Shown: positions 1-22,301 of the stretch, piece by piece
Position numbering within the stretch: position 1 is the stretch's first letter
Layout of the letters: each line of letters begins with the position of its first letter
Source: a virus
Reading direction: 5' to 3' (one strand)
Virus record (IMG/VR): IMGVR_UViG_3300030105_002676
Location: 5,414 to 37,017 of that record
Length of the DNA: 31,604 nucleotides
Made by a program: the position numbers and the translations under genes
The notes under the pieces: model-generated
Seen by the model: only the letters and a program-made list of their open reading frames with translations
Databases searched by the model: none
What the model was told of the DNA's origin: nothing

Positions 1-393
1 TGCCGCTAATATACATAGGGCGGGTTTCATATGTTCGTGTTTTATTTTACCAGAACCACGATCTGAGTCATCTGAAATTCTAATCACATCATCAACTTCA
101 GGGGTAGAAACTTCCTGTAAAATTATATCAGTGATCGCGATTACTCTATGTTTCTTTGGTGGTTCTACGGTGAAGAAGTCTCCAGCCTTCATTATTTTTT
201 TATCTACTACACCATCATCATTTTCCAACCAAACTTCCGCAGTACCTTCAATTATATAATTTGTTTCTAACTTTTGGTTATGGTATTGATAACTTGTCTT
301 TGTTCCGGCATTAATGTATATTCTCTTATAACAATACTTATCATTTAGTTCTAACCACTCTTCTCTTCCCCAAGGTTTATATATCGTTTTCAT
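1..393 (-). CDS. Cupin, mannose-6-phosphate isomerase-like (3' end beyond window)
   Basis: The frame is open from ATG at 393 to the window edge (131 codons), so the C-terminus is missing. The N-terminal KPWGREEW, the central HNQKLETNYIIEG segment and the later PPKKHR stretch look like the cupin half of mannose-1-phosphate guanylyltransferase / mannose-6-phosphate isomerase type II proteins. The fold and the two histidine patches suggest a metal-binding sugar-phosphate isomerase or epimerase. It overlaps the upstream HAD gene by 17 bases and is the last visible member of the glycan cassette, so a role in nucleotide-sugar supply is inferred. Exact substrate unknown; a stand-alone sugar-binding cupin is the alternative. 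Confidence 0.72.
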   Translation of the reverse strand, partial: MKTIYKPWGREEWLELNDKYCYKRIYINAGTKTSYQYHNQKLETNYIIEGTAEVWLENDDGVVDKKIMKAGDFFTVEPPKKHRVIAITDIILQEVSTPEVDDVIRISDDSDRGSGKIKHEHMKPALCILAA

Positions 394-739
394 CAAGTAA
401 CCCTTTATTTCTTTTTAAATTAATTGCATACGCGGTGTCTCTATCGCTATCACTTTTTCTGTCGTTAATGAGTATTCTATCTCCCCCACCAAACCCCATT
501 ATTAATTGGTCATAATTTATACCAGCTATTTGCATCTGTTTTATGGTTGCCTCTCTTGCACTCTCTTTTCTACCTGTAGTTATTATTAGTCTATAACCTT
601 TCGTGTCCCATTCAATTAACTTATCATGTACACCAGGTAAAACTTCTAATATTAAATTTGGATTTTGAACATCTATTGGATTTGAATGCTTTACCAACGT
701 ACCATCCAAATCACAAAATATAGTCTTTGGTCTACTCAT
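377..739 (-). CDS. HAD-family phosphatase, capsule-biosynthesis type
   Basis: A 120-residue HAD hydrolase without a large cap. Motif I is DLDGT (D10 nucleophile, D12 acid/base), motif II is the TTGR segment near 54-57, and motif IV is INDRKSDSD near 91-99. Short HADs of this form sit in capsule and LPS loci and remove phosphate from sugar phosphates. ATG at 739; its start overlaps the end of the preceding gene by 8 bases and its end overlaps the cupin gene by 17, so the three are probably co-translated. A nucleotide 5'-phosphatase or a polynucleotide 3'-phosphatase domain is a possible alternative, but the neighbours favour sugar phosphate. Confidence 0.75.
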   Translation of the reverse strand: MSRPKTIFCDLDGTLVKHSNPIDVQNPNLILEVLPGVHDKLIEWDTKGYRLIITTGRKESAREATIKQMQIAGINYDQLIMGFGGGDRILINDRKSDSDRDTAYAINLKRNKGLLDENDI

Positions 740-1580
740 AACTTAAAACCTCTTCTTTACTTAATTGTCTATATCTAAAAATATCATAATCTATACTATC
801 GTCTTTACTACCACCTATAATCTTGGGATTTAATTCATGCCAAGTAGCAAATGATCCTTCAATTGTGTCCTCTGTTAATAACCCAAGTTTTTTCAAATGC
901 CAAACCATTAAAAAATGATGTGATATAGTATTCCATTGTTCACATTGACCAGGTTTTGTATATGAGTCTAAAAGTTGGTACATCCTAGAAAACATTTTCA
1001 TGTAATCTGAGTTTGATGCGAATACATGATCTAACATTTCATTACTTTCATGAGGCCACCCATATGTTGGCATATCAGGATGTATAGGTATATGGAATTT
1101 ATTTGGATTTAAACTCTCAAAGTCAAATGGTTTATTCCAACACAAATCTAACCTAGCATTAACAACTAAATCATATTTAAAATTGTGTATTATTTCATAG
1201 GAATTAACTAATCTCATAACTTTTCTAAATCCATACCATCTACTCTTGTGATTTATCACCCTATTGATATTACCATCGGTAAATGTCTCTACTCCATTTA
1301 TAGCTGGAGCTTTAATTCTTCTTAAATGCTCTGGTATTTCAAAATTTATCTGTGGTACTAACGCAATCATTTTTGGTGATAAGTATTTTTGGAATTCTTC
1401 TCTAAAGTCTGTGTGCCAACTAAATACAAAAAAATCTACATCGTTATTTGGAACAATATACTTTTGTAATAAATTACTAACATACTTTAGTATTAAAAGT
1501 TGGTCATCACGTGTACTGCCACTTGAATTTTTACCAGTTAAACCACCAATTAGTCCATTTAATGTGTAAGCTATTTTCAT
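732..1580 (-). CDS. Glycan-cassette protein, glycosyltransferase-like, unknown
   Basis: 282 residues. I place the start at ATG 1580, which makes a 4-base ATGA overlap with the stop of the preceding gene; a TTG three codons earlier is less likely. Visible features are an N-terminal KIAYTLNGLIGG strand-loop, DVDFFVFSW near 50, NHKSRWYGF and KYDLVVNARLDLCW in the middle. The last resembles the acidic strand end of GT-A enzymes. Proteins of this appearance turn up in capsule/LPS loci and in phage glycan clusters, but I cannot assign a named family. Function inferred from context: sugar transfer or glycan assembly. Confidence 0.6.
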   Translation of the reverse strand: MKIAYTLNGLIGGLTGKNSSGSTRDDQLLILKYVSNLLQKYIVPNNDVDFFVFSWHTDFREEFQKYLSPKMIALVPQINFEIPEHLRRIKAPAINGVETFTDGNINRVINHKSRWYGFRKVMRLVNSYEIIHNFKYDLVVNARLDLCWNKPFDFESLNPNKFHIPIHPDMPTYGWPHESNEMLDHVFASNSDYMKMFSRMYQLLDSYTKPGQCEQWNTISHHFLMVWHLKKLGLLTEDTIEGSFATWHELNPKIIGGSKDDSIDYDIFRYRQLSKEEVLSYE

Positions 1581-2938
1581 ATTGTACAAATAACTCCTTC
1601 TCTATCAATCATTTTCCAACCAGATTTAGTTAAGAATCCAGCATCTTCTCCAATCAATGAGTCAACTTTAATCTTACCTTCTTTTATCTTATCATCTATT
1701 GAAGCTCTGATATTTCTATTGTTTGGGTTTCCATAATCATCTAATATTATTATTGGGCTGTCGAACATATCAATACATTTTTGTATGTCTATTGCAACTT
1801 GTGGATAATCATGACTAGCATCAACAAATACAACATCAACTTGTGGAAAATCCCAAGTGTCATTCGTTACATCCATTATTGAAGCCTCTACATTATCAAC
1901 ATCTTTACATTTTTGTTTTAGTATTTGAATGTTCTCTGGGTCTCTATCAACAGCATAAACTGTTTTAAATAACTCAGAAAAAATACGTGTAGTGTCTCCT
2001 TGACATGCTCCCAATTCTAAAACCTTCATTTTTTTATACTTTTCATCTTTAAAGTATTCAATCAAATCTGATTTAAATTTCTTTGATGTTGCATTCTTAA
2101 AAATATCTTTGTGATTTACCAAGTTTAATAACCTATCTGTTTCATTATAAGTATAATAATGTTTTACCAAATCCCAAGTTTTTTTCATTAGCTCAGTTCT
2201 TTGATCTTTTGGTATACCATTGAACATCCAGTTATTTGCATACTTAATAAAAAACGGAGTGGTATCTTCGTTTAATTGCCAATTATGAGAAAGCATTTCT
2301 TTTCTATGTGGGTGAGAACACATCCACAGCACATGAGGTAATATATTTAATTCTACATTATTTTTTTGAACCCAATAGTTTAATGGAGTTTGATCGTTTC
2401 CTTTACGAACAACTTCATCTTGCAACTTCATAAATGTTTCTTTATTGTCTATGTATAGTTGTTTAAGACCTTGAAAAACACCTTCATGACTTTCATTGAA
2501 TACCATAAAACCAGACCTAAAATACTTTGACGAGTCTAGTTTAAAGTCATCAAAAAATTCTTTATAACCTTGTATACTTTCATACACCCATCTCATATTA
2601 TCTATATCTCTAGTTACAGTAAATTTTCTATCAGTTAACTCAAAGAAATTAGGACAATCCCACTTCACCATTACCGTACTATCTATTAATGCTATCTGAT
2701 CATATTCTATGTTTCTACGTTTCAGTTCATCAAATACAAATATAGCTTTCTGCCAATTGATTCTGTAATCTTGTAGATTATTCTCTACTGGCTCTTCAAA
2801 TGGTACAAAGATAACATCATTTTTCTTACACCAATACTCCCAAGTTTTTTTGGAGTATTCAAAGTAATCAAAGTTTCCATATTTATCACTATGCTCTTTA
2901 TTTTTTACTGCTGGCCACCAAACAACGTTTTTCTTCAT
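1577..2938 (-). CDS. Fused glycosyltransferase (GT-A like) and SAM methyltransferase
   Basis: 453 residues in two parts. Residues about 1-250 look like a GT-A type nucleotide-sugar transferase: YDQIALIDSTVM near 80-90 carries the acidic strand end, and YFRSGFMVFN near 139-148 resembles the acceptor-side motif of GT8-like enzymes. Residues about 285-453 are a class I methyltransferase: VLELGACQGDTT (306-317) is the SAM-binding glycine-rich loop, VYAVDRDPENI the following acidic strand, and VVFVDASHDYPQ a Methyltransf_24-like motif. Translation couples to both neighbours by ATGA overlaps. A single enzyme that adds and O-methylates a sugar is inferred, not shown. Confidence 0.68.
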   Translation of the reverse strand: MKKNVVWWPAVKNKEHSDKYGNFDYFEYSKKTWEYWCKKNDVIFVPFEEPVENNLQDYRINWQKAIFVFDELKRRNIEYDQIALIDSTVMVKWDCPNFFELTDRKFTVTRDIDNMRWVYESIQGYKEFFDDFKLDSSKYFRSGFMVFNESHEGVFQGLKQLYIDNKETFMKLQDEVVRKGNDQTPLNYWVQKNNVELNILPHVLWMCSHPHRKEMLSHNWQLNEDTTPFFIKYANNWMFNGIPKDQRTELMKKTWDLVKHYYTYNETDRLLNLVNHKDIFKNATSKKFKSDLIEYFKDEKYKKMKVLELGACQGDTTRIFSELFKTVYAVDRDPENIQILKQKCKDVDNVEASIMDVTNDTWDFPQVDVVFVDASHDYPQVAIDIQKCIDMFDSPIIILDDYGNPNNRNIRASIDDKIKEGKIKVDSLIGEDAGFLTKSGWKMIDREGVICTI

Positions 2939-3843
2939 ACTAAAACAATTCCTTTTTTTAATCTCTTATCACATTCAAAATCTTTAACTAACAAAGTACC
3001 ATCAACTAATTTTAATATAAACTTACCATCAAAAAAATCTATTATTTCACCAACTTTATATGTACTAAAATCTAACTTAGTATCAAAGGGTACAGCATCC
3101 CACAAAATAACATTAGAGCCTTCATACACGAGAAATGAACCAGGAAAAGGTCGTGTAGTACCTCTGATTAAATTATAGATATCAATCATATCATGACTTA
3201 AATTTATCTTACCATCTTTTGGAGTCCGTTTAGGAAAAAAAGTTTCTTCAATATTGTTTTTCTGATTAAATAATTTTATACTATTAGTTTTATAGTCATT
3301 TATCAATTTAGATACTTCTGTTCTAGTGACTATTAAATCTTTCATCTTAATAGATTCCACACTATCCCAATTATTTATTTCAAACTTAACCGTAGAGTAC
3401 ATCATACCACTATCTGCTTTAGCAACATATTTAAACAGATTGAAGTAAACTTGATTAAAACCTCGTATGATTGACCAGTTCAATGGTGACCTACCTTTAC
3501 CATATGGTAATCCTAATGGACTAGCATGTGTTCCAAATACACCATTTTTAAATTTATCCAAAATATATTGAGGTATTAATCTTTGCCAACCATAACTTAT
3601 TCCTAGTTCAAATTCATTATTTTCAAAAAAATCACCACATGATTTTAAAGAGTAATCATCTGTACTATAACATTTTATATTATTTGTTTTAACAAACTCA
3701 GAAAAATCTCCCTCTCCAGCTATATGATTATTTTGTTTTATAGTATCATCAACTGTTACTATTAAATCTATATCGTTTTTAAACGTTTCCATTAAAGATA
3801 CAGTTGATTCCTTGACACCAAAAACTACTATTTTATATTTCAA
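2935..3843 (-). CDS. Formyltransferase, Fmt-like (probable sugar N-formyltransferase)
   Basis: 302 residues with an N-terminal Rossmann-type half, a THASPL segment holding the catalytic histidine (H106) and ADSGMMY holding the catalytic aspartate (D144), then a C-terminal OB-like half with TRPFPGSF. The family transfers a formyl group from 10-formyl-tetrahydrofolate. The asparagine normally two residues before the histidine is a glycine here (G104), an odd feature. The start is TTG at 3843 in a TTGA overlap with the preceding stop; it keeps the first beta strand, which the next ATG would remove. Neighbours are sugar enzymes, so N-formylation of an amino sugar is more likely than initiator-tRNA formylation. 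Confidence 0.72.
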   Translation of the reverse strand: MKYKIVVFGVKESTVSLMETFKNDIDLIVTVDDTIKQNNHIAGEGDFSEFVKTNNIKCYSTDDYSLKSCGDFFENNEFELGISYGWQRLIPQYILDKFKNGVFGTHASPLGLPYGKGRSPLNWSIIRGFNQVYFNLFKYVAKADSGMMYSTVKFEINNWDSVESIKMKDLIVTRTEVSKLINDYKTNSIKLFNQKNNIEETFFPKRTPKDGKINLSHDMIDIYNLIRGTTRPFPGSFLVYEGSNVILWDAVPFDTKLDFSTYKVGEIIDFFDGKFILKLVDGTLLVKDFECDKRLKKGIVLV

Positions 3844-4583
3844 GACAATAACTCAATTGGAAATGTTTTTGTCTCCGTATTCATAGAATGTATTAGTTCT
3901 ACATTTCTTTCCTCAATTAATTTGTTATAGTTTTTATAGTTATCTGGTATTCCCACATTGCTCCAAGAAAATGGGTGTGTTAATAATTGTAATTTATTAA
4001 TGTTATTAAAATCTAATGGGTGACCATATTTCCACATATGATTTGAATCTGCTAGATAATGTATTCGTAAATCTTCAGGTCGTTCTCCACTAAAATAGTG
4101 AAAAAATTCTTTAGCATAACAATTAATCTTATCAGGCACTTCAACATATTTTTTTAATAAAGTAGGATTACTCCCACATCTATGAAAAGCATACCTATCA
4201 ACTTCAAACCCATAATAATGTTCAAGGGTTTCTATATCTTTTAATATATAATCTGTTAATTCATCATCTGACATCGATGGTGGATTTTGATGTAATCCAA
4301 TATGATGGCCAAGGTTTTTGATTTCTTTAACTGCCTTGATATTTTTTTCTGAAAGGGCATTGTACGTATTGTTTCTCAATTGTACTGTATATGTAGAATT
4401 TACACCAAGTGAAGATTCAACATTTGCTAACTCTAAAGCTCTATCTACTGAAAATTCTATATCATGCCTTAAAACACAAAACTTCTCCGTATCAAATGTA
4501 ACATCTTTAAAATCAACAATTGGTAATTTACTATTTACTACGTTAATTATATTTTTATAATTTTTATAACTAAAATTATTCAT
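3840..4583 (-). CDS. Polysaccharide deacetylase-like (NodB fold)
   Basis: 247 residues. RHDIE (39-43) matches the shortened first NodB motif in which the second aspartate binds metal, and LGHHIGLHQ (91-99) matches the GHEIxxH histidine motif. YAFHRCG near 131-137 is a plausible third active-site motif. The family removes acetyl groups from N-acetyl sugars in an alpha/beta barrel. The gene sits directly before the formyltransferase with an overlapping stop and start. Deacetylation to a free amine followed by N-formylation is a sensible two-step modification, though this is inference. ATG at 4583 overlaps the preceding stop as ATGA. Confidence 0.7.
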   Translation of the reverse strand: MNNFSYKNYKNIINVVNSKLPIVDFKDVTFDTEKFCVLRHDIEFSVDRALELANVESSLGVNSTYTVQLRNNTYNALSEKNIKAVKEIKNLGHHIGLHQNPPSMSDDELTDYILKDIETLEHYYGFEVDRYAFHRCGSNPTLLKKYVEVPDKINCYAKEFFHYFSGERPEDLRIHYLADSNHMWKYGHPLDFNNINKLQLLTHPFSWSNVGIPDNYKNYNKLIEERNVELIHSMNTETKTFPIELLS

Positions 4584-5566
4584 ATCATATCCTCTATTTT
4601 TTTTCTAACAGCATTATAACTAAATACTTCATTTACTTTATCCCAAGCGTAATGTATAGCATCTAAGTGTTTTTTTGGATCGTTAATATAATCATCTACT
4701 TTATTTTCTAGGATTGACACATCACACGTTGCTGTTTCTGGAAATAAAATATGATGATAATCATTAACACCACCTATGTTTATAGTTCCTGTTGCTGCTA
4801 CTAATGAACATTGATTGCCTGGAAAATAGTCTACAGGGTCTAAATTAAAATGAAATGCGCATGATGACCAGTTCGTTATAAATTCTTTTTGTGACATATA
4901 ATCAAAGTTCTGACCATTTTGCATAGGTTTGAATCTAACTGGTATGTTATATTTATCTCCAATGTATTTTGAAAATTCATATGTATTTGACCTTCGTGCG
5001 ATTGGATTTGGTAAGTATGCCCAAATTGAAAGTTCTTTATCACCATAAAAATTATCATATAGATAATCAACATCAACTGGAATGGGAACAAAATTAAATG
5101 ATTTATCTATACTATCAGCTATCTGCTGATGTTCTTTTAGTTCTGGACGGTTTGTGACTACCACATCACATTCATTTAAAAACTTTATCCTAGCTTTATG
5201 TTTTGGGTGTTCATAGTCATATGGTGGCCCCACCCACAATTCCTTAATCCATCCAGCTATCTTTGCATTTGGATATTTTTTTCTAATTTTATCAACTGTA
5301 TAGTCAGGATTAAGTAAAAGTTTTTCCATAGATAACAATATCAAATCTAACTCCAAATCTGGTAAATCATCTCCATAATCATCCCATTTAATAAAACATC
5401 CATTTTCATATAGTTTGGGGTAATTCCACATACTTACATAAAATTCATTACTAATAGACTCTCCAATAAAACTATAAGGATTACCATTAAAATCATAACC
5501 TTTATTATCTTTTATTTGATAGGATTTTTTTCCACTAACGGTATCTAAAATCATTGCAAAATTCAT
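4580..5566 (-). CDS. Glycosyltransferase, GT-B-like
   Basis: 328 residues. The layout looks like a GT-B fold: an N-terminal half with LDLILLSMEKLL and CDVVVTNRPELKEH (a receptor-domain strand followed by helix), then VPIPVDVDYLY, the usual linker position, and a C-terminal half with CSLVAATGTINIGG and a late LFPETATCDV segment. It ends with a long helix packing back, as these enzymes do. I do not recognise a specific CAZy family and see no clear EX7E motif. ATG at 5566 shares one base with the stop of the preceding GT2 gene (TAATG). Role inferred: adds a sugar in the same glycan pathway. Confidence 0.6.
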   Translation of the reverse strand: MNFAMILDTVSGKKSYQIKDNKGYDFNGNPYSFIGESISNEFYVSMWNYPKLYENGCFIKWDDYGDDLPDLELDLILLSMEKLLLNPDYTVDKIRKKYPNAKIAGWIKELWVGPPYDYEHPKHKARIKFLNECDVVVTNRPELKEHQQIADSIDKSFNFVPIPVDVDYLYDNFYGDKELSIWAYLPNPIARRSNTYEFSKYIGDKYNIPVRFKPMQNGQNFDYMSQKEFITNWSSCAFHFNLDPVDYFPGNQCSLVAATGTINIGGVNDYHHILFPETATCDVSILENKVDDYINDPKKHLDAIHYAWDKVNEVFSYNAVRKKIEDMI

Positions 5567-6213
5567 TATGATTTCCTACTTAATAAATCTCTACTGAAAT
5601 TATCCATGTAGAATTGATTTTGTTGTTCTTGTTTTTCTTTAGTCTTTGGATGGTATAAACTTAGTTCTTGTTGTGGTGGTAAATGTGCATATGTTTTACA
5701 ACCTTTGATGTATTCATGTAATGGTCTTGTCCATCTTATAGACGCATCCCTTCTGAATACTCTTGCTTGATAATCAGGATAGTTTACCCACCCTTTATCT
5801 GATATTTTCCAACCCCATTTTTTAACATCTGCCTCTGTAAACCCATCTACAGTATTTACTCTTGGAATCCATATCAAATCAACACCATTGTTCATTTCTA
5901 TAATTTGTTTTAATTGTAACAATAAAAAATTGTGAGGATACTCATCCGCATCTATGTGAAATATGTAATCACCTGTTGATTTATCTATAATTGAATTTTT
6001 TTGGTCTGCAAAGTTACCATCAAGTTTTCTTTTGTAAACTATAGCTTTATTTTCAGATAGATATTCACCTAATACAGCCTCTACCTTTTCATCATCACCA
6101 TCAACACAAATAACTATCTCATCTTCTTCGTCTATCTTATCTAGTAATATATCTAATAACTTGTTTAGTTCATCTGATTCATTGTGAACTGTAATACCAT
6201 AACTAATTTTCAC
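5566..6213 (-). CDS. Glycosyltransferase family 2
   Basis: 215 residues, a short GT2. It opens with ISYGITVHNESDEL, the typical first strand and N-E loop, and the metal-binding DXD is HIDADEY at 87-92. IRWTRPLHEYI near 160-170 resembles the acceptor and catalytic region of WaaE/beta-glucosyl-type GT2 enzymes that act on LPS core. The start is GTG at 6213, overlapping the preceding gene by 11 bases. It should transfer a sugar from a nucleotide-sugar donor in the cytoplasm; there is no membrane segment. The family call is solid, the acceptor is unknown. Confidence 0.85.
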   Translation of the reverse strand: MKISYGITVHNESDELNKLLDILLDKIDEEDEIVICVDGDDEKVEAVLGEYLSENKAIVYKRKLDGNFADQKNSIIDKSTGDYIFHIDADEYPHNFLLLQLKQIIEMNNGVDLIWIPRVNTVDGFTEADVKKWGWKISDKGWVNYPDYQARVFRRDASIRWTRPLHEYIKGCKTYAHLPPQQELSLYHPKTKEKQEQQNQFYMDNFSRDLLSRKS

Positions 6214-6667
6214 TCAGTACCTCACTTAGTCCTCTTGGTAATTTTATTGGTTCTAAGAATACACCTGATTTTTTTGCTTCCGTATAATCATATGTTCTAT
6301 AAATCGAATGTGATTTTATATATTTTTTTATTCTAGTATACACAGCTTTAGTAGCACCACGATTTCCAACTCCCATCACCTCTACTCTATATATCTCATC
6401 ATCTCCACTTAAAACCTGTATTTCACCCATACTTTCTAATAGTTGTACAAGTTTTGGTTTATTTCTTATAGTTGGAATGTTACCACTTGTTTCTAATTTC
6501 AATCCTATCAGGTGAAATGTTTTAGAACCATCTTTTTTAGTATATGGCATTTTTGGATTCATAACCAATAAGGTGGTTAAAATTCCAACTGGTTTTTTAC
6601 CTTTATATCTAAATGATATAATATCACCGGCTTGTACTTTACCCCAAGTATATATCTGTTTAGGCAT
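6203..6667 (-). CDS. Conserved hypothetical protein
   Basis: 154 residues, soluble, basic. The N-terminus (WGKVQAGDIISFRYKGKKPVGIL) reads like a small beta-barrel of SH3 or KOW type, followed by a charged helical tail ending in a leucine-rich segment. No catalytic motif is visible. It is coupled to the zinc-ribbon gene before it (8-base overlap) and to the GT2 gene after it (11-base overlap). The pair between glycosyltransferases could be regulatory or structural; I cannot assign a function. Confidence 0.55.
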   Translation of the reverse strand: MPKQIYTWGKVQAGDIISFRYKGKKPVGILTTLLVMNPKMPYTKKDGSKTFHLIGLKLETSGNIPTIRNKPKLVQLLESMGEIQVLSGDDEIYRVEVMGVGNRGATKAVYTRIKKYIKSHSIYRTYDYTEAKKSGVFLEPIKLPRGLSEVLSEN

Positions 6668-7109
6668 TTTTACTCATATCCCTTGTTATTCCCATCAACT
6701 CACATGCTTTGATGAACTCATATTTACCAAATGTTTTCGCATTGTTAACATCTAGTCTTTGAGTGTGGTTGTCATACATAACACGCTCTTCTTTTGGTAT
6801 ATCTACGACTTCAGCGTATTTCCAAACATATGTATCAACTTCACCTTCTGGAAAAATCATTCCCAATTTACCCATATTAATTACCGATGGAAACCATACT
6901 ATGTTTCGTTCTGTATCTTCAAATTTAGAATCTCGTACTAACTTTGGTGATTTTTTAAGATTATCAATAAGTTTTAAACTTCCTATTTCGTAACGAGAAT
7001 CACTCATAAATCCACAATTAAAACATAAATACGAACTGAATGTTTCTTGCATTTCTTCAAAGCAATGATTTGTATCAAAACAAACTGGACAAGTTATTAT
7101 TTTTTCCAT
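6660..7109 (-). CDS. Zinc-ribbon protein of unknown function
   Basis: 149 residues with an N-terminal zinc ribbon made of CPVC (C7, C10) and CFNC (C29, C32). The rest has no recognisable motif beyond FGKYEFIKACELMG near the C-terminus. Zinc ribbons of this form bind nucleic acid or protein partners. It begins one base after the stop of the preceding GT4 gene region and overlaps the next gene by 8 bases. No function is assigned. Confidence 0.55.
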   Translation of the reverse strand: MEKIITCPVCFDTNHCFEEMQETFSSYLCFNCGFMSDSRYEIGSLKLIDNLKKSPKLVRDSKFEDTERNIVWFPSVINMGKLGMIFPEGEVDTYVWKYAEVVDIPKEERVMYDNHTQRLDVNNAKTFGKYEFIKACELMGITRDMSKNA

Positions 7110-7110
7110 A

Positions 7111-8442
7111 TTACACCTTCTTTAATTTTGGTAGTTTTATTTTTGGAGCCTCTACGTTATTAACTTTTGTTAACTTTGGCAACTTCAATTTTATTTCTTT
7201 AGGAAATTCAGGAACATATCTATCTAGTAATAGCCCAAATTCTCTAGTCATTGCATCTAAAGAAAATTTAGCTTTATTATAAATAGTTAATTTTTTAGCA
7301 GGAAGTGTATATTTTCTATAATTCTTGTATACATCTTTCATCATACGAGAAGCTTCATTATAATTAACTGTAAACCATTTCATACCATCTTGATGAAACT
7401 CATCTGGAAAAGAACCCCTTGCAACATCTGTTAATTCACCATTGAGTAAAACCGCATTTGGTCTTTTCAAGAAATCAGTATGACCACTCCAATTGGGTGC
7501 AATCACAGGTTTATTACTCAATGAAGCTTCTAGTAATGGTCTACCAAAACCTTCACCATGTGTCAATGATACATGAGCTTTTACTTTAGGATGATTGTAT
7601 AATTCATTAATTTCTGCATCCATAAAATCACCATGAAATAAATATACGTTAGGTAAGTCTCCATCAATTGAAACTTTGATTTCATCAATTTTAACCAACA
7701 GAGTTTGTCTATCTAATACAGAGTAACCGGCTCCACTAGTTTTCAGTATCAAAGCTGGTTTGTTTTTCATGTTCTTAAATGTTTCTAAAAATACCTTTAC
7801 TAACATACCCGTATCTTTTCTATCTTGTCCAAGTCCACCCTGCAACCAATGTCCTACATATAAAAAATTAAATTTTTCAGGTATTTTATCCATCTCAGCT
7901 AGAAGACTTTTTGAAAACTCATTAGTTATTTTATATATGTTGGTATCTGCACCCTCAAATAAAACTTCCATTGGTTTTTCTAATTTTAATTCACCAGTTT
8001 TTTGTTTTGTTCTATCATCTTCTATATCAAATTTAATGATTTTTAAATTATCTCTTACGAAGGTAGCTGGAACTATATTTAAATCCATTTTATTCATACC
8101 TTGTATCCAATGAGGATGACATAAAGTAGTTTCCAATCCAGCTGTAATACCTATATTATATTTTCCAACGGTTTGAAACTCAGTTGGTATAACAATATGT
8201 ATATGCAATTCTGGTTGATTTGGTAAGTTAGGTTCTGGTAATAACCTATCAATTATCATCTTATCATTTGGGTCATCGTAATGTAAAGCATTCATTGGTG
8301 TATTACCCCAACGAACCGGCCAAATTTTTATATCGTATTTATCTAATTTAATTAATGATCTACATATATCTCTACTATGTGCACCATAACCACTTCGGGT
8401 TGCAACTGGTGCTGTGACCAAACATACTGGTTTAGAACTCAT
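7111..8442 (-). CDS. Glycosyltransferase family 4
   Basis: 443 residues, full length for a GT-B enzyme. The N-terminus has the glycine-bearing loop RSGYGAHSRD that contacts the donor, and the C-terminal half contains HGEGFGRPLLEAS followed by NKPVIAPNWSGHTDF, the EX7E-type motif of GT4 enzymes. A lysine- and proline-rich tail with two copies of KLPKL ends the protein, which is unusual and may mediate binding. It lies 10 bases after the other GT4 gene. The target could be a surface glycan, virion protein or modified DNA; the downstream sugar-modifying genes favour a glycan. Confidence 0.85.
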   Translation of the reverse strand: MSSKPVCLVTAPVATRSGYGAHSRDICRSLIKLDKYDIKIWPVRWGNTPMNALHYDDPNDKMIIDRLLPEPNLPNQPELHIHIVIPTEFQTVGKYNIGITAGLETTLCHPHWIQGMNKMDLNIVPATFVRDNLKIIKFDIEDDRTKQKTGELKLEKPMEVLFEGADTNIYKITNEFSKSLLAEMDKIPEKFNFLYVGHWLQGGLGQDRKDTGMLVKVFLETFKNMKNKPALILKTSGAGYSVLDRQTLLVKIDEIKVSIDGDLPNVYLFHGDFMDAEINELYNHPKVKAHVSLTHGEGFGRPLLEASLSNKPVIAPNWSGHTDFLKRPNAVLLNGELTDVARGSFPDEFHQDGMKWFTVNYNEASRMMKDVYKNYRKYTLPAKKLTIYNKAKFSLDAMTREFGLLLDRYVPEFPKEIKLKLPKLTKVNNVEAPKIKLPKLKKV

Positions 8443-8452
8443 ATTTTACTCC

Positions 8453-9844
8453 TTATGCTTTATATATACTATAACGTTTTCTTGGTTTCCATTTATCAAA
8501 TGTAGTATCCATCTGATCGATAAAATTTTGTGACATGGCTGTAGCAGACATCATTGAATCAGTACTCATTACGAATTCATATCCCTTCATACCACACTCA
8601 TCTCTTTTATCCTTACCCATATCATACCATTTTTTGATAGCATCGGCCGCATCATCAAATCTACATCTATCATCCCAAATGTAAGGTGTTGGTATTGAAC
8701 CAGCCAATGATCTATTGGATGGCCATATTGGGTTTACCCACTCACCCCAAGTTAAATCAGGATTATCTTTCCATTTTCTATCATCATGTAATGAATGTAT
8801 TTCATCATAATCACCTGCAGTTAATAGTTTATCATTTAATTTAAAACCACATTGATCTTGTAATCCACCTGTAACATTTACCACAATTGGTGTTCCAGCC
8901 ATTAATGACTCACACGTTCCCAATCCAAACCCCTCATTGGATGCCATATTAATTGTAACGTCTGCCATGTTATATAAACAATTTAATTTGACTGGATCTA
9001 TTTTTTTAGCACTAAAGTATATTTTACATTCAGAAGCTAATCTACTAGCAACGACTGGTAAATCCGTACCATTTTCATCTCTTGGTTGTGTATGCATTAT
9101 AAGAGCACATTTATCAGCTTGTTCTTTCGGTAACATATCACAAAATGTTTTAAATGCCAATACAACATCACCAGGATTCTTACGGCGAATATTTCTGTTA
9201 TTGTAAAATACTATAAATTCAACTTTACTATCTATATTAAGTTGTCTCCTCATCTCCAACATAAGTTTTTGGTCATTATCATCATTGGCTATAGGTTTGA
9301 AGTGAGTATTACTTACACCATGTGGTAAATAAGTACAATCCCAATCTGTTCTCGGCTTTTGTTTTGCAACTTCTTTTACAATAGCTACAGTTTGTTTTGA
9401 TATATTCATTATTAAATCAGAACACTCGTAGAAAAATTCATTGTAATGTGGAGCTGGCCAATCATCCCAAATATTATAATAAAATATAGGAATATTTTGT
9501 CTGATTTCATGTTCCATTTCATATAACCATCCCCAAAATCTTGGATCGGTATAATGTAGGATTGCATCAGGATTTTCTCTTCTCATTACCTCTCTAACTA
9601 CTTCTTGACTACCATATCCATCTGTAGGATATATAGTTAGTGATGCATCCGTTACACCTGTTGTATTAACTGCAGCTTCGTTCATGTTTATAATTTTACC
9701 ATTGTCAGGATGTTTAATTGCACCACCAAGTTGAACCCAATCATAGTGATGTATAGTTCCCATGACAAATTCTTTTGACATCGTTCCAACACCAGATGAC
9801 ATTCTTAGATCATCTGATAATAATAGAATCTTTTTCTTAGCCAT
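8453..9844 (-). CDS. Glycosyltransferase family 4
   Basis: 463 residues with the GT-B layout. MSSGVGTMSKEF near 16-27 is the donor-side glycine loop, FIVFYNNRNIRRKNP begins the C-terminal domain, and NEGFGLGTCESLMAGTPIVV is the EX7E motif. ATG at 9844 overlaps the preceding small gene by 8 bases. The paired GT4 genes open the glycan cassette. Similar pairs occur in large marine myoviruses; here the following formyltransferase, deacetylase and methyltransferase make glycan assembly more likely than simple glucosylation of modified bases. Confidence 0.85.
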   Translation of the reverse strand: MAKKKILLLSDDLRMSSGVGTMSKEFVMGTIHHYDWVQLGGAIKHPDNGKIINMNEAAVNTTGVTDASLTIYPTDGYGSQEVVREVMRRENPDAILHYTDPRFWGWLYEMEHEIRQNIPIFYYNIWDDWPAPHYNEFFYECSDLIMNISKQTVAIVKEVAKQKPRTDWDCTYLPHGVSNTHFKPIANDDNDQKLMLEMRRQLNIDSKVEFIVFYNNRNIRRKNPGDVVLAFKTFCDMLPKEQADKCALIMHTQPRDENGTDLPVVASRLASECKIYFSAKKIDPVKLNCLYNMADVTINMASNEGFGLGTCESLMAGTPIVVNVTGGLQDQCGFKLNDKLLTAGDYDEIHSLHDDRKWKDNPDLTWGEWVNPIWPSNRSLAGSIPTPYIWDDRCRFDDAADAIKKWYDMGKDKRDECGMKGYEFVMSTDSMMSATAMSQNFIDQMDTTFDKWKPRKRYSIYKA

Positions 9845-10294: not shown

Positions 10295-10705
10295 CTAATT
10301 TAGTATTCGTGTCATTTTTTTTTCTTTTTCAGCATGTTTGATTGTATCCATTGTTCCTCTTGACTCAACTCCATCAGGAATAAAAGCTATGATCATGTCA
10401 CAATACTTAGCAATCTGTTTGTTTCGTTTAAAATAGTTACTGATATAATATGGTTTACTATAATGGTTAGCCGATAACTTACAATGCATATTATGCTGGT
10501 AATGTGATGGTGGAAATTCCACATACTCCATACCAAATTCAAGACTGTATTTTTTGGCTATATTATCAGCTCCATGTTTTTGACCACCACTAACAATTTC
10601 AACATCATCATGTTTTTGTTTTATTTTAAATAACAAATCTTTTATTTTTCTTTTGTCGGTATATCCTCTACTACCAACTATACCAATTTTAATCTTCGTA
10701 GTCAT
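10295..10705 (-). CDS. SLOG-family protein (DUF2493-like)
   Basis: 136 residues. It begins KIGIVGSRGYTD, the first strand and glycine loop of the SLOG Rossmann-like fold, followed by VSGGQKHGADNIAKKYS and CDMIIAFIPDGVESRGTMDTI, which match the nucleotide-binding GG.xxGAD and the late G..S.GT motifs of DUF2493/YspA-like proteins. SLOG domains bind nucleotides or nucleotide derivatives and are common in phages. It overlaps the upstream gene by 17 bases. A role in nucleotide sensing or processing is inferred. Confidence 0.75.
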   Translation of the reverse strand: MTTKIKIGIVGSRGYTDKRKIKDLLFKIKQKHDDVEIVSGGQKHGADNIAKKYSLEFGMEYVEFPPSHYQHNMHCKLSANHYSKPYYISNYFKRNKQIAKYCDMIIAFIPDGVESRGTMDTIKHAEKEKKMTRILN

Positions 10706-11111
10706 TTCTCTTCTGTCTCTTAGTTGGTCTATCAGTAGTAATGAATTTTACACATTTATATAATTCATCCAAACCATCTAGTATTTTATTATTGTCATTA
10801 TATGAATAACAAAATCTATAATGCCCACTCTTTGGTGTAGAAATTGGTAACACATCAAAAAATACAAATTCATCTGATTCTAATTTATGATTGTGTCTAA
10901 TTTTTGTTTTGAAACTTAATATATCTTCATATCTGATTATGAAATTATTTAAATCTTTTGGAGTAAGTTCATCGTTTTCATACCACAAATGTAATAAAAT
11001 AGTTGCTCTAAAATCTCTATGAGTTTTATTTATCATCTTCATAATAGAGTTTTCGTGTTCTGTATTTATAAAATCTGAAAGTTTTAGTCTTACTGTAATC
11101 TTAGATAACAT
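10689..11111 (-). CDS. Conserved hypothetical protein
   Basis: 140 residues, no recognised motif. The N-terminus is a strand-like KITVRLKLSDF, followed by RDFRATILLHLWYENDELTPKDL and a basic tail RPTKRQKRN that might contact nucleic acid. ATG at 11111 shares one base with the stop of the nuclease gene (TAATG), and its end overlaps the SLOG gene by 17 bases, so it belongs to the same translated unit. Confidence 0.5.
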   Translation of the reverse strand: MLSKITVRLKLSDFINTEHENSIMKMINKTHRDFRATILLHLWYENDELTPKDLNNFIIRYEDILSFKTKIRHNHKLESDEFVFFDVLPISTPKSGHYRFCYSYNDNNKILDGLDELYKCVKFITTDRPTKRQKRNDYED

Positions 11112-11974
11112 TACTTCACTCCCGAATCACAATGTTTAGTTTGATTGAATTCACACCATTTACAATTTTTCTTTGAAGGTCTTTTAATATATGTACGTTC
11201 TGTATTATATTCACCATTATCAAATGACTCATCGACAAACTGATTTAAGTTAGTTATAACTTTATTAACAGATGGTTTACCACTAGCAGGACTAAAGGTT
11301 TGAATTCTTCGCTGTGGAAAATCTAGCCCTTCATACAACTTTCTCTTAACAATAAAATATTCAACATCTATTTTATCCAATGAAATATTCTTTTCAGCTC
11401 CATAAAAATGTTTATACAATAGTAATTGGTCTGTTTTATGTTTATCAGCCTTCTGCCATTTGTTCCACCCCATAGTAGATGTCTTTATATCTATAATCTT
11501 ATATCTATCTCTAAACGTATCATATATTACAACATCCATATAGCCAATAAATTTAATGTCATTGGGTAAATCAAAATTTATAGGAACTTCAATACCAACT
11601 AATTCATAATTCTTCTTACTAAAGTAATTAGCTCTTTTTTTCTTAAACCACTCTAATATTAACAATCCATGTTGATAAAACTCTTCCATATCAGTTTGTT
11701 TACAAAACTCAACACCACCATTTTTTTTCATTATATTAGTGTAATTATGTTTCATTCGGTGTAATAACATTTCTTCCAATGGAAGTGCATCCGCCGTTTT
11801 TACAGTATCCTCGTACATAACTGTAAGATATGTTTGTAAGACCTCATGCATAGAAGTACCAAACATGGTGTGAATACTGTCTGTAAATTCACTTAATTTA
11901 TCAATGTACTTCAACTTCCATTTATATGGACAGGTTACCCATCCATTATATTGACTATAACTTATTCTTTTCAT
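11111..11974 (-). CDS. RecB-like PD-(D/E)XK nuclease with Fe-S cysteine pattern
   Basis: 287 residues from my chosen start. GYMDVVIYD followed by KIIDIKTS gives the D...(D/E)xK active site of the RecB/Cas4/AddB nuclease superfamily, and DQLLLYKHFYG is the conserved Q-L-Y helix. Four cysteines (C15, C271, C274, C282; C-Xn-CX2CX7C) match the iron-sulphur staple of AddB and Cas4. I place the start at ATG 11974, which forms TAATG with the stop of the small gene before it and begins right at the conserved SYSQYNGW segment. An ATG at 12010 in frame would add 12 residues but lacks a ribosome binding site. Probably an exonuclease for recombination or host DNA breakdown. Confidence 0.8.
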   Translation of the reverse strand: MKRISYSQYNGWVTCPYKWKLKYIDKLSEFTDSIHTMFGTSMHEVLQTYLTVMYEDTVKTADALPLEEMLLHRMKHNYTNIMKKNGGVEFCKQTDMEEFYQHGLLILEWFKKKRANYFSKKNYELVGIEVPINFDLPNDIKFIGYMDVVIYDTFRDRYKIIDIKTSTMGWNKWQKADKHKTDQLLLYKHFYGAEKNISLDKIDVEYFIVKRKLYEGLDFPQRRIQTFSPASGKPSVNKVITNLNQFVDESFDNGEYNTERTYIKRPSKKNCKWCEFNQTKHCDSGVK

Positions 11975-12093
11975 TAATCCATCCATTTTTCGTGATTGAT
12001 TAGATGCCATAGTCTATGTGTAAACATTTCCCATAACAAACCAACTAAGGTATCTGATTCATAGACACCAGCTTCACATTCGTATTTATACAC
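11974..12093 (-). CDS. Small 39-residue protein, GTG start
   Basis: This reading frame fills the apparent 82-base gap between the Nmad1 gene and the nuclease. GTG at 12093 shares its G with the upstream stop (TAGTG), and its own TAA shares a base with ATG 11974 of the nuclease (TAATG). The product begins MYKYECEAGVYESD and ends HLINHEKWMD, with three tryptophans and one cysteine, a composition typical of a small folded protein rather than chance reading. Both junctions show the coupling used by its neighbours. Function unknown. Confidence 0.65.
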   Translation of the reverse strand: MYKYECEAGVYESDTLVGLLWEMFTHRLWHLINHEKWMD

Positions 12094-12623: not shown

Positions 12624-13133
12624 TTATAAATTTCCACCAGGTGAACTACCTACAACATTGAGTCCAGCTTTATGTATCAACTTCTCGTCAACACCCCATT
12701 TTCTACAAAGTTCACCTAACTCAAGCATACCACCTTCAGTTAACATTAATATGTCAACATAGTCTCTAGCTTCTTTTCTACTAATCTGTTCATGATTTCT
12801 TACTATATTAATCAACCAATTTGGATAATCCATATCATTTTTTCCCTTTGTATATTTTAACCACCTTTTACTTTTTGGTAAAATATTTGTGTATACTTTA
12901 TACAACTCTTTTGGTTGTAATTTATACTTTTGTACTTCATTTACAAGCTCTATCCAATCAGGTTTCATAGATAAGAATCTATTGACCATATAATTAGACC
13001 AAGACTTCTTATCTTCTTTTGAAATATCTTCCCAATAATTAGGATTTTGAACCTTTGTTATTTGGGTTATATGATCAAATAGACTTTTTTTCTTTACTAC
13101 CTTACTTTTTTTCTTTACCACCTTACCCGACAT
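12624..13133 (-). CDS. 62: Clamp-loader small subunit, gp62-like
   Basis: 169 residues. SLFDHITQITK, WSNYMVNRFLSMKPDWIELVNEVQKY, LPKSKRWLKYTKGK and YPNWLINIVRNHEQISRKEARDYVDIL follow the order seen in T4-like gp62 proteins. The subunit joins four gp44 ATPases to open the gp45 clamp and load it on DNA. The position fits: gp44 is three genes upstream and gp45 further on. The N-terminus carries a lysine-rich extension from a tandem 21-base duplication. The ATG at 13133 overlaps the preceding gene by 11 bases. Family call rests on pattern and context, since gp62 diverges fast. Confidence 0.78.
   Translation of the reverse strand: MSGKVVKKKSKVVKKKSLFDHITQITKVQNPNYWEDISKEDKKSWSNYMVNRFLSMKPDWIELVNEVQKYKLQPKELYKVYTNILPKSKRWLKYTKGKNDMDYPNWLINIVRNHEQISRKEARDYVDILMLTEGGMLELGELCRKWGVDEKLIHKAGLNVVGSSPGGNL
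13084..13125 (-). repeat. Tandem 21-base duplication in the gp62 gene
   Basis: Two adjacent 21-base units, 13084-13104 and 13105-13125, differ at one base (13098 versus 13119). They encode two VVKKKSK heptads at the gp62 N-terminus, and the second unit also overlaps the stop of the preceding zinc-ribbon gene. Confidence 0.85.
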
Positions 13134-13359
13134 CAGGCATCATACTCTTTGGTACTGTACCACAATTACCACAACTGTATACCTGTATTGGCATCATAGT
13201 TTCTTTTCCATTCGGTGAAACAATTGGTGATATTCTTCTTATAAAAAAAGATTGTATGAAAGAATAATTACCACATTCCTCACATTTTACCGATTCAGTA
13301 TCATTTATGTTTATTTGTTTTTGTGGTTGTTTTATTGGTTTCAATGGCTTAGTGCTCAT
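13123..13359 (-). CDS. Small zinc-ribbon protein
   Basis: 78 residues. VKCEECGNYSF and YSCGNCGTVPK give a two-knuckle zinc ribbon (CxxC twice, about 36 residues apart). The N-terminus is proline- and lysine-rich and likely flexible. The gene lies between DUF4494 and gp62 in the replication group with 11-base overlaps at both ends, a position that suggests a replication or transcription accessory; I know of no demonstrated function. Confidence 0.65.
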   Translation of the reverse strand: MSTKPLKPIKQPQKQININDTESVKCEECGNYSFIQSFFIRRISPIVSPNGKETMMPIQVYSCGNCGTVPKSMMPDVG

Positions 13360-13561
13360 TCACTACCTCTACTATCCTTGACTCCTTTACAAGTTTTACT
13401 TCAAATGTATAAGGACTATCTTTTAGATATTTATTTATTTTTGTTTCAGCTACACTAACTGCGTCACAATCAACAAGATAATATCTCCGCACTCTTTTTT
13501 CTTTTGTACCATTTTTTGTCTGAATTTCTTCGACAAACATAACTTGAACTTCGTAATACAT
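13349..13561 (-). CDS. DUF4494 protein
   Basis: 70 residues. The order YYEVQVMFVEEI, KRVRRYYLVDCDAVSVAETKINKYLK and FEVKLVKESRIVEVV matches DUF4494, a small alpha/beta family found mainly in Bacteroidota genomes and their phages. AGGAG lies about seven bases before ATG 13561. Function is unknown; its occurrence supports an FCB-group host. It stands between the two clamp-loader subunit genes. Confidence 0.7.
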   Translation of the reverse strand: MYYEVQVMFVEEIQTKNGTKEKRVRRYYLVDCDAVSVAETKINKYLKDSPYTFEVKLVKESRIVEVVNEH

Positions 13562-13569
13562 TCGTACTC

Positions 13570-14496
13570 CTATTTTATTATTGTTAGTAATTCTATTAAC
13601 ATAGCCATAGCATTGATTTCTTTATCAACTACTTGACCATCTGATAACTCATACCTAGCTATCACTAAAATACACTCTGCTAGGTGACCTGCACCCCAAT
13701 CATCAACTTCATCATATAATAATCTGAACAAATCGTTAAAGTCTGTAATCTTATTATCTAATAATAACTGTCTGATACTTTGAAATGCATCTTTTTTGTT
13801 TTGTGTTTTTAAAATCTTTAGTAGTTTTAATTTGTAGTCATTTTGTATTATACTCGTAGTGTCCAATTTAAGTTTACCATTAACCACATTTCTTTGAGCA
13901 GCGTTCAAAACTCTACGAATATCAGGATATCCACTATCTATTAATATCTTCAAATCATCCATCTCATGAATTACATTTTCACTTATAAGGATATCGTGGA
14001 TGTGTTTTGCAACTTCACCCTTTGATGGTGGAACAATTTGAAATGATTGACATCTTGATTGTATTGGATCGATAATCCTTTCCACAAAATTACAAGTTAA
14101 GATGAACCTACAATGTTTACTAAATGTTTCCATTAAGTTACGAAGTGCAGCCTGGGCATTAGGGGAAATGTAATCACACTCATCTAAGATGACTACCTTC
14201 ATGTCCTTAAACCCCACAGTAGATGCAAAGTTCTTAATATTAATTCTAACGTTATCAACACCAGTTTCATCAGAAGCATTAATGTATATATGATCACATT
14301 CTATATTCTTAACAAGTAATTTAGCTAATGTTGTTTTACCAGTTCCAGCCTTACCATATAATAAAAGATGTGGTAAGTCTCCACTTTCCAAGTAAGCTTT
14401 GACTTTATCTCTTAAATGGTCATTTCCAATGTAAGTATCCATTGTACTAGGTCGATACTTTTCTACCCATAGTGTGTGTGATTTATTATTTATCAT
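13570..14496 (-). CDS. 44: Clamp-loader large subunit, gp44-like AAA+ ATPase
   Basis: 308 residues. Walker A is GKAGTGKTT (48-56), Walker B is VVILDECD (101-108, DECx form), and the arginine finger is in QSRC (146-149). WVEKYRP at the N-terminus is the signature of RFC small subunits and gp44. Four copies with gp62 load the gp45 clamp at primer ends using ATP. Length is close to T4 gp44 (319). The start overlaps the end of the denV gene by 11 bases, so clamp, repair and loader genes are translated together. Confidence 0.93.
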   Translation of the reverse strand: MINNKSHTLWVEKYRPSTMDTYIGNDHLRDKVKAYLESGDLPHLLLYGKAGTGKTTLAKLLVKNIECDHIYINASDETGVDNVRINIKNFASTVGFKDMKVVILDECDYISPNAQAALRNLMETFSKHCRFILTCNFVERIIDPIQSRCQSFQIVPPSKGEVAKHIHDILISENVIHEMDDLKILIDSGYPDIRRVLNAAQRNVVNGKLKLDTTSIIQNDYKLKLLKILKTQNKKDAFQSIRQLLLDNKITDFNDLFRLLYDEVDDWGAGHLAECILVIARYELSDGQVVDKEINAMAMLIELLTIIK

Positions 14497-14893
14497 TTGT
14501 TGTTAACCTATACCAATTTGGTTTTTGACTAATTCGTTCTTCTATTCGTTTTCTTACTATTTTTTGATCTTCAATAGTTGGCATCCAATCATTATACAAT
14601 CCATCGGGCCATTGATCTCTCTTGAAAACCCTTGTGTCGTCTGGTTTCATACCTCGGTCAATCATCTCTCCACGTAAAGCATCATATCTTTTAGATAGAT
14701 ATTTACCCTTATCATAAAAAAACATGACATGGCCTTTATTAAGTGTAAACTTATTAGGTATTCTATTGACATCCCAATTTGGAGATTTTAAACTTCTCTG
14801 TAACGATGAACCCACCATAAATAACTCTCTATACTCAGCTACTAGATGTTGATCTGTTAGTTCCGATGGGTTGATTATGTTTATTCTAGTCAT
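14486..14893 (-). CDS. denV: Pyrimidine-dimer DNA glycosylase (T4 endonuclease V type)
   Basis: 135 residues, nearly the T4 DenV length of 138. The N-terminus MTRINIINPSELTDQHLVAEYREL carries the catalytic T2 (its alpha-amine after Met removal) and E23; R3, R22 and the later KGHVMFFYDK and RPxWY-like QKPNWYRL segments are also conserved. The enzyme cleaves the 5' glycosyl bond at cyclobutane pyrimidine dimers and nicks the abasic site, starting repair of ultraviolet damage. ATG 14893 overlaps the methyltransferase stop as ATGA. This suits a phage of sunlit water. Confidence 0.93.
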   Translation of the reverse strand: MTRINIINPSELTDQHLVAEYRELFMVGSSLQRSLKSPNWDVNRIPNKFTLNKGHVMFFYDKGKYLSKRYDALRGEMIDRGMKPDDTRVFKRDQWPDGLYNDWMPTIEDQKIVRKRIEERISQKPNWYRLTTNDK

Positions 14894-22235: not shown

Positions 22236-22261
22236 TAACGTTCTCCTTGATTTACGATTAA

Positions 22262-22285
22262 GGCACATTTTTTATCAGGTGTGCC
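22262..22285 (-). other. Hairpin in the nrdJ-receptor spacer
   Basis: GGCACA and TGTGCC form a 6-base-pair stem around a 12-base A-rich loop, between the nrdJ stop and the receptor ribosome binding site. No T tract follows in the minus direction, so it looks more like a processing or stability element than a terminator. It contains a 10-base sequence also found in the gp32-uvsX hairpin. Confidence 0.5.
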
Positions 22286-22301
22286 GTCTGCCTGTTCGCA
22301 T

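Follow-up and report, generated by a model that had tools for sequence, protein, structure and literature searches.

What a phage would build with a long run of sugar-handling genes, and on which acceptor, is the question raised by the window analysed here, a stretch of 31,604 nucleotides corresponding to bases 5,414 – 37,017 of a 37,017-base viral contig (L004). Twelve consecutive minus-strand genes occupy positions 1 – 9844 of the window, and their co-translation is plausible because the intergenic gaps are only −20 to +10 b. The purpose of the large 'LPS' clusters of marine T4-like phages has been under discussion ever since the first cyanophage genomes, and both filler DNA and remodelling of the host surface have been put forward. 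A preliminary description of the window had proposed a cassette far beyond the one or two enzymes used for DNA glucosylation, and this was borne out.

Gene content and setting of the cassette

The contig carries T4-like replication genes (PolB, clamp, gp44, gp62, UvsX, gp41 and a gp32-like gene), a core common to Microcystis phage Mel-JY01. The sugar genes form an island within this replication module: the clamp-loader genes gp62 and gp44 (12,624 – 14,496, minus strand), which have the same order and homologues in Mel-JY01, where they are annotated as clamp loader, mark the module around it. Closer to the island lie a PD-(D/E)XK nuclease gene (11,111 – 12,010, minus strand), syntenic in at least 12 loci and so annotated in Mel-JY01 and in Flavobacterium phage immuto, and the gene for an SLOG (YspA-like) protein (10,295 – 10,705, minus strand; PF10686, E = 2e-11), by synteny a conserved neighbour upstream of the glycosyltransferases. 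DUF1599, whose Pfam name is nucleotide modification associated domain 1, is also found near the island, and two N6/N4 DNA methyltransferases are encoded. No tail or virion function was recognised among the genes distal to the island, neither a virion protein nor an acceptor was identified on the contig, and an Rfam search gave no match in the window.

The two GT4, the GT2 and the GT-B-like enzymes, the deacetylase, the formyltransferase-family protein, the glycosyltransferase-methyltransferase fusion, the HAD protein and the cupin named in the preliminary description were all confirmed, two of them by predicted folds and the others by Pfam or PHROGs; a phrog_13607 protein, a Zn ribbon and a small protein had been omitted from its list. 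The first glycosyltransferase, GT4a (8453 – 9844; PF00534, E = 9e-8, above cut-off), retains the EX7E motif and is 46 – 50% identical to proteins of the cultured phages immuto and Mel-JY01. GT4b (7111 – 8442; phrog_2170, E = 5e-19, with the Pfam score just under cut-off) also keeps EX7E and ends in a C-terminal KIxLPKLKKV tail. It is followed by the Zn-ribbon protein (6660 – 7109), with CxxC...CxxCG in most of 15 aligned copies, by the small conserved protein (6203 – 6667), which has relatives in 10 – 12 loci, and by the GT2 enzyme (5566 – 6213; PF00535, E = 3e-12), whose DxD is kept in 22 copies.

Structure prediction, proposed earlier as a check, resolved the two proteins that match no Pfam family. 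The protein at 4580 – 5566 was predicted as a GT-B-fold glycosyltransferase (AF2 pLDDT 83; best Foldseek match the GT4 enzyme BshA, E = 4e-7, probability 1.00) and that at 3840 – 4583 as a CE4/NodB-fold deacetylase (AF2 pLDDT 81.5; best matches CE4 deacetylases, E = 6e-7). A PDB sequence search with profiles of both gave nothing useful, so that the predicted folds alone were informative, and profile comparison of the GT-B enzyme with RXYLT-like glycosyltransferases of sister phages was not significant. The deacetylase motifs RHD, GH..GLH and AFHR are conserved in 16 phage copies.

The next gene encodes an ArnA-like protein of the sugar N-formyltransferase family (2935 – 3843; PF02911, Formyl_trans_C, E = 5e-10, and alignment to ArnA), which was found in full in four loci, directly preceded there by the deacetylase. 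This order would fit removal of an acetyl group and then acylation of the amine so exposed. The His and Asp of the catalytic Asn-His-Asp triad are kept; the Asn (N102 of ArnA) is Gly in 4/4 phage copies. The fusion protein (1577 – 2938; Methyltransf_24, E = 5e-7; 19 viral relatives) has a glycosyltransferase half akin to GT8-like proteins, with DST, DSS or DAT in place of DxD, and a SAM methyltransferase half that retains motif I. The N-formylation suggested before, which depends on an enzyme that lacks a catalytic residue, is therefore less secure. The phrog_13607 protein (732 – 1589; E = 2e-12), which adjoins the HAD and cupin genes in three other loci (L017, L024 and L028), is probably a GT-A-like transferase. 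The run closes with a HAD-superfamily phosphatase of PNK/IIIA-like type (377 – 739; PF08282; phrog_415, E = 4.5e-10), whose nucleophile motif DLDGT is kept in relatives, and a cupin of the mannose-6-phosphate-isomerase C-terminal type (1 – 396; MannoseP_isomer, PF01050, E = 3.5e-9, above cut-off), whose 3′ end reaches a 10-N gap immediately beyond the window. Catalytic motifs are mostly intact, and across many phage copies in the case of both GT4s, the GT2, the deacetylase and the HAD protein; the exceptions are the formyltransferase Asn and the degraded DxD of the fusion.

Extending the view along the contig, as had been advised, showed that the cassette continues across the gap (contig bases 5404 – 5413) for at least 5.4 kb beyond the window start. 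The order there is a nucleotidyltransferase-kinase, a shikimate-dehydrogenase-like N domain, an aldolase-like protein (contig bases 2352 – 3293) with no Pfam family and no convincing host match, a GT8-like protein, a GDP-fucose-synthase-like reductase and a truncated DegT-family protein. ColD is GDP-4-keto-6-deoxymannose 3-dehydratase, and the DegT-family protein (contig bases 1 – 720) aligned best to ColD (PDB 2gms, E = 9e-47, about 190 residues), with which it has the HHI.T.EGG motif in common. Because it is ColD-like and has His at the position of the aminotransferase PLP-lysine, no true sugar aminotransferase is shown on the contig. The adjoining reductase gene (contig bases 692 – 1585) is of the ColC/GDP-fucose-synthase type (GDPFucSynFcl, E = 6e-55, far below the equivalog cut-off). 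GMD, the supplier of GDP-4-keto-6-deoxymannose, is not on this incomplete contig; both sister phage L006 and the host locus described below have it. Our best guess from these genes is that one product of the cassette may be a colitose-like sugar. Sister phages encode other sugar genes, among them NeuB, CMP-sugar synthetases, UDP-glucose-type dehydrogenases and a metallo-lactamase-Rieske protein.

Conserved anchor and variable block in related phages

About 33 related loci were recovered from IMG/VR and from isolate phages, so that related clusters do exist in many phages. Their conserved anchor has the order gp44, gp62, DUF1599, PD-(D/E)XK, SLOG, GT4a, GT4b, Zn ribbon, small protein and GT2, with the nuclease gene at the upstream edge of the anchor and the GT2 gene as its last member, and a highly variable block comes after it. 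Immuto and Mel-JY01 likewise have a PD-(D/E)XK gene followed by the GT4-GT4-GT2 head. Where both ends were visible, the length of the island ranged from about 17 kb in G016 to about 37 kb in G004, and it ended near a conserved GT2-like gene. The 244 cassette genes fell into 109 families, and for phage pairs with a GT2 identity of 60 – 87% the median fraction of cassette families in common was only 16% (Jaccard 0.16).

The cassette is under purifying selection. By the Nei-Gojobori method, dN/dS was 0.02 – 0.28 for cassette and anchor genes and 0.06 – 0.18 for the replication genes and a TonB-dependent receptor gene of the same phages; several of the dS values were above 1 and are rough. The KIxLPKLKKV motif was found in 15 of 2,047 ORFs, all of them anchor proteins; it forms the C-terminus of GT4b in most loci and also occurs in GT4a (L019) and in the Zn ribbon (L002). 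This distribution suggests a putative docking peptide that may gather the core enzymes on a common partner.

Host assignment and membrane machinery

The cassette is carried by a T4-like phage of uncultured marine Marinimicrobia. The host was assigned from the TonB-dependent receptor encoded beside the island, because its cellular relatives are Neomarinimicrobiota; in the receptor tree the sampled phage copies all fell in one strongly supported clade nested among Neomarinimicrobiota, a clade that also takes in three sequences with cellular records, of which two are clearly phage contigs. The receptor is a core gene of this phage lineage. A role in B12 uptake was considered for it and rejected, there being no cobalamin riboswitch at 24 host-collection loci.

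Comparison with host O-antigen loci, another check suggested earlier, found a matching locus in Marinimicrobia genome G194. It is a complete Wzx/Wzy-type surface-polysaccharide locus, with flippase, polymerase, Wzz and initiating transferase, and contains an Epimerase-ColD-GMD run; the trio of sister phage L006 has the same order and is 66, 72 and 78% identical to it. The reductase of the contig studied here is 66% identical to its counterpart in the same locus. GT4a and the fusion protein, the two glycosyltransferases tested, were found in one Marinimicrobia genome out of 199, where the contig that carries them (G169:C19, L185) reads as phage; by this measure they appear to be phage-only. A single-sequence search with the deacetylase returned no homologue in 10 Marinimicrobia genomes; a homologue of 29% is present in G194.

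The membrane steps of such a host pathway were not found in the phages. None of 107 ORFs of at least 100 aa from four islands had three or more TM segments in a hydropathy scan, which found 3 such proteins among the 29 of the G194 locus. By TM content the islands hold no polymerase of the Wzx/Wzy type, and no multi-TM protein that could be the GtrA flippase or GtrB bactoprenol transferase of a serotype-conversion gtrABC system. The initiating transferase Bac_transf (PF02397) and the flippase Polysacc_synt (PF01943) were found in 0 of 25 phage records, all of which may be incomplete, by a search that recovered its positive controls. Because flippase, polymerase and initiating transferase were not found, a free-standing pathway for host LPS or capsule is not encoded.

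Acceptor of the glycan and comparison with known systems

The explanation we tentatively favour, at slightly less than even confidence, is that phage glycosyltransferases build a host-like glycan in the cytosol on an acceptor that the phage itself encodes, most likely a virion protein. A fixed phage core (GT4a, GT4b, GT2 and their Zn-ribbon partner) would work with terminal transferases and sugar-nucleotide enzymes drawn from an exchangeable block. The phage would make or divert nucleotide sugars of host type, of which a GDP-colitose-like 3,6-dideoxyhexose derived from host GDP-4-keto-6-deoxymannose is the most likely, and residues may be deacetylated, methylated and possibly acylated. The soluble glycosyltransferases would assemble a short glycan, and virions would gain a host-like, rapidly changing sugar coat, on the model of the glycosylated chlorovirus capsid. 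An acceptor of phage origin is more likely than one of host origin because the anchor glycosyltransferases are common to phages with hosts from three phyla (Marinimicrobia, Flavobacterium and Microcystis), and these hosts are expected to differ in their surface glycans. The phage-only glycosyltransferases contrast with the host-matching Epimerase, ColD and GMD, and no membrane export step was found, both of which speak for this explanation, as do the low dN/dS values, the KIxLPKLKKV tail that anchor proteins have in common and the small overlap of cassette families between close relatives. Against it, the island lies in the replication module with no late genes recognised beside it, on contigs that are incomplete, and host-like sugars would fit remodelling of host intermediates too. 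The identity of the sugar, the acceptor and the benefit to the phage are what we infer from these data, and sequence alone does not decide between a virion protein and the host surface. A literature search on phage capsid glycosylation returned little among the papers covered.

Remodelling of the LPS or capsule of the infected cell, one of the targets first suggested, is the main rival, a serious though somewhat doubtful one. Phage glycosyltransferases would act on lipid-linked intermediates of the host, host Wzx/Wzy or ligase would export the product, and rival phages would be blocked. Such remodelling has been proposed for cyanophage P-SSM2 (PMC2984593) and pelagimyophages (PMC7029224); the match of the sugar donors to a host O-antigen-type locus agrees with it, and an island among replication genes would fit early expression. 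However, neither an initiating transferase nor a flippase, polymerase or ligase was found, so the host would have to accept a foreign repeat unit; membrane proteins of the GtrA/GtrB type are lacking, and the core glycosyltransferases are conserved in phages of unrelated hosts. Non-functional filler that was taken from hosts and serves headful packaging is another suggestion, made before for the LPS clusters of cyanophages (PMC3037559), and it could draw on the fast turnover of cassette gene content. We regard it as very improbable. The cluster is under selection, with dN/dS values as low as those of replication genes; its phage glycosyltransferase core is fixed across unrelated hosts, it has sugar genes in common with a host locus, and the membrane machinery is missing. 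Catalytic motifs preserved in as many as 22 copies and unbroken operon spacing also count against filler.

Glycosylation of phage DNA bases, diversified against restriction, is an improbable reading, and modified bases, also listed in the preliminary description, are an unlikely target. The dCMP hydroxymethylase/thymidylate-synthase family (PF00303) is not on the contig and occurs in just 2 of 25 related records, which may be incomplete; TET/JBP was found in 0 of the 25 by a search that had no positive control, and two DNA methyltransferases are present instead. To our knowledge the number and variety of the sugar genes are far above those for any known DNA sugar, which also counts against it. 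In its favour are the place of the island in the replication module, near DUF1599 and the SLOG protein, and the nucleotidyltransferase-kinase, whose architecture resembles TH1_060 of phage Thanatos (PMC12838424). The DNA glycosylation of T4, RB69 and Thanatos likewise combines phage-encoded sugar activation with glycosyltransferases, but most of the relatives studied here have no hydroxymethylase and they have many more sugar genes.

Returning to a virion acceptor, a broader proposal, which we consider rather unlikely, is that T4-like phages of at least three phyla use a phage-specific core glycosyltransferase complex to coat the virion and swap its outer sugars from host surface-polysaccharide loci, forming a host-mimicking, serotype-like virion system.

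The cassette belongs, as a variant, with the 'LPS clusters' already known from marine T4-like phages: the genome is T4-like, it has several glycosyltransferase and sugar-nucleotide genes, and their content varies between relatives, as in the large glycosyltransferase and deoxysugar-gene clusters of cyanophages P-SSM2, S-SM2 and S-SSM7 and the host-recognition cluster of pelagimyophages (PMC3037559, PMC2984593, PMC7029224). It differs from them in its fixed place behind a GT4-GT4-Zn ribbon-GT2 anchor, within the replication module and neither beside tail fibres nor near hli03/phoH, and in having a counterpart in a host locus. Among bacterial O-antigen loci of the Wzx/Wzy type, those with GMD, ColD and ColC for a GDP-colitose-type pathway resemble it through the sister-phage trio, but the phages have no Wzx, Wzy, Wzz or initiating transferase. 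In chlorovirus PBCV-1 (A064R, GMD, GMER) the capsid glycan is made by soluble viral glycosyltransferases, including a glycosyltransferase-methyltransferase protein, with sugars supplied by viral GMD and GMER and without need of the host ER/Golgi (PMC5408694). PBCV-1 is a eukaryotic virus whose acceptor is known, whereas that of the phages is one we infer; the likeness, in soluble glycosyltransferases, a glycosyltransferase-methyltransferase protein, GMD and GDP-fucose-synthase-type enzymes, is one of gene functions. The glycan loci of immuto and Mel-JY01 have the same PD-(D/E)XK, GT4, GT4, GT2 order and, behind it, a variable sugar cassette whose genes differ from those of the window; immuto further has a family A polymerase and deazaguanine DNA-modification genes. 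In this cultured relative the question of the acceptor is directly testable.

A TonB-dependent receptor in the phage core genome

Position 19503-22268 encodes a TonB-dependent receptor of 921 aa, with a plug and a carboxypeptidase-regulatory-like domain, which is a core gene of the T4-like phage lineage of the window. An IMG/VR search matched it to 321 stretches; in the best 80 of these, the class II ribonucleotide reductase (RNR) gene was located immediately upstream of the receptor gene in 75 and PolB immediately downstream in 67. Receptor identity was 72-87% between phages whose PolB identity drops to 46-60%. In the phylogeny, all phage copies group in a single clade inside Neomarinimicrobiota, and the receptor was therefore likely gained from the host once, long ago. 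A TonB/SusC gene has been reported in marine megaphages (PMC9723777); no earlier report of a TonB-dependent receptor in the present lineage was found in the literature.

Since the receptor adjoins an adenosylcobalamin-dependent RNR (TIGR02505, above cut-off; the pair spans 19503-24314), uptake of B12 was suggested, but this is unsupported because no cobalamin riboswitch was found at any of the 24 loci carrying cellular receptor copies.

DNA methyltransferases and phage-like contigs in cellular genomes

The replication module contains two DNA methyltransferase genes of the N6/N4 type (14890-16056 and 24401-25474), one of which is flanked by clamp and clamp-loader genes. Three contigs deposited under Flavobacteriales (L118), Euryarchaeota (L161) and Marinimicrobia (L185, genome G169) read as T4-like phage DNA and are probably mis-binned.

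Anchor proteins and cassette enzymes

The short tail KIxLPKLKKV was found on different proteins of the conserved glycan anchor, including the C-terminus of GT4b (7111-8442), a Zn-ribbon copy (L002:7351-7842) and a GT4a copy (L019:4725-6275); among 2,047 ORFs, no protein outside the anchor carried it. In two related loci (L013:2355-2834 and L035:95-583), most of the cysteines of the Zn-ribbon protein (6660-7109 in the window) have disappeared, although the gene keeps its position.

The formyltransferase-family proteins of the window (2935-3843) and of related loci L005, L006 and L007 share an invariant GVFGTHASPLGLP, and the catalytic Asn is replaced by Gly in every copy. These proteins possibly catalyse a different acyl or one-carbon transfer.

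An aldolase-like protein of 313 aa (L004:2352-3293 on the window's own contig; also L017 and L028), to which no Pfam or NCBIfam family was assigned, belongs to a mini-module that also includes a HAD, a cupin and a nucleotidyltransferase-kinase. In the window's contig, a shikimate-dehydrogenase-like protein is present as well. The mini-module is possibly an undescribed sugar pathway.

Sister cassettes of related phages (L002:13750-15267, L009 and L015) encode a combined metallo-beta-lactamase and Rieske protein, alongside which L009 also encodes NeuB; the combined protein is reminiscent of CMP-sialic acid hydroxylase.
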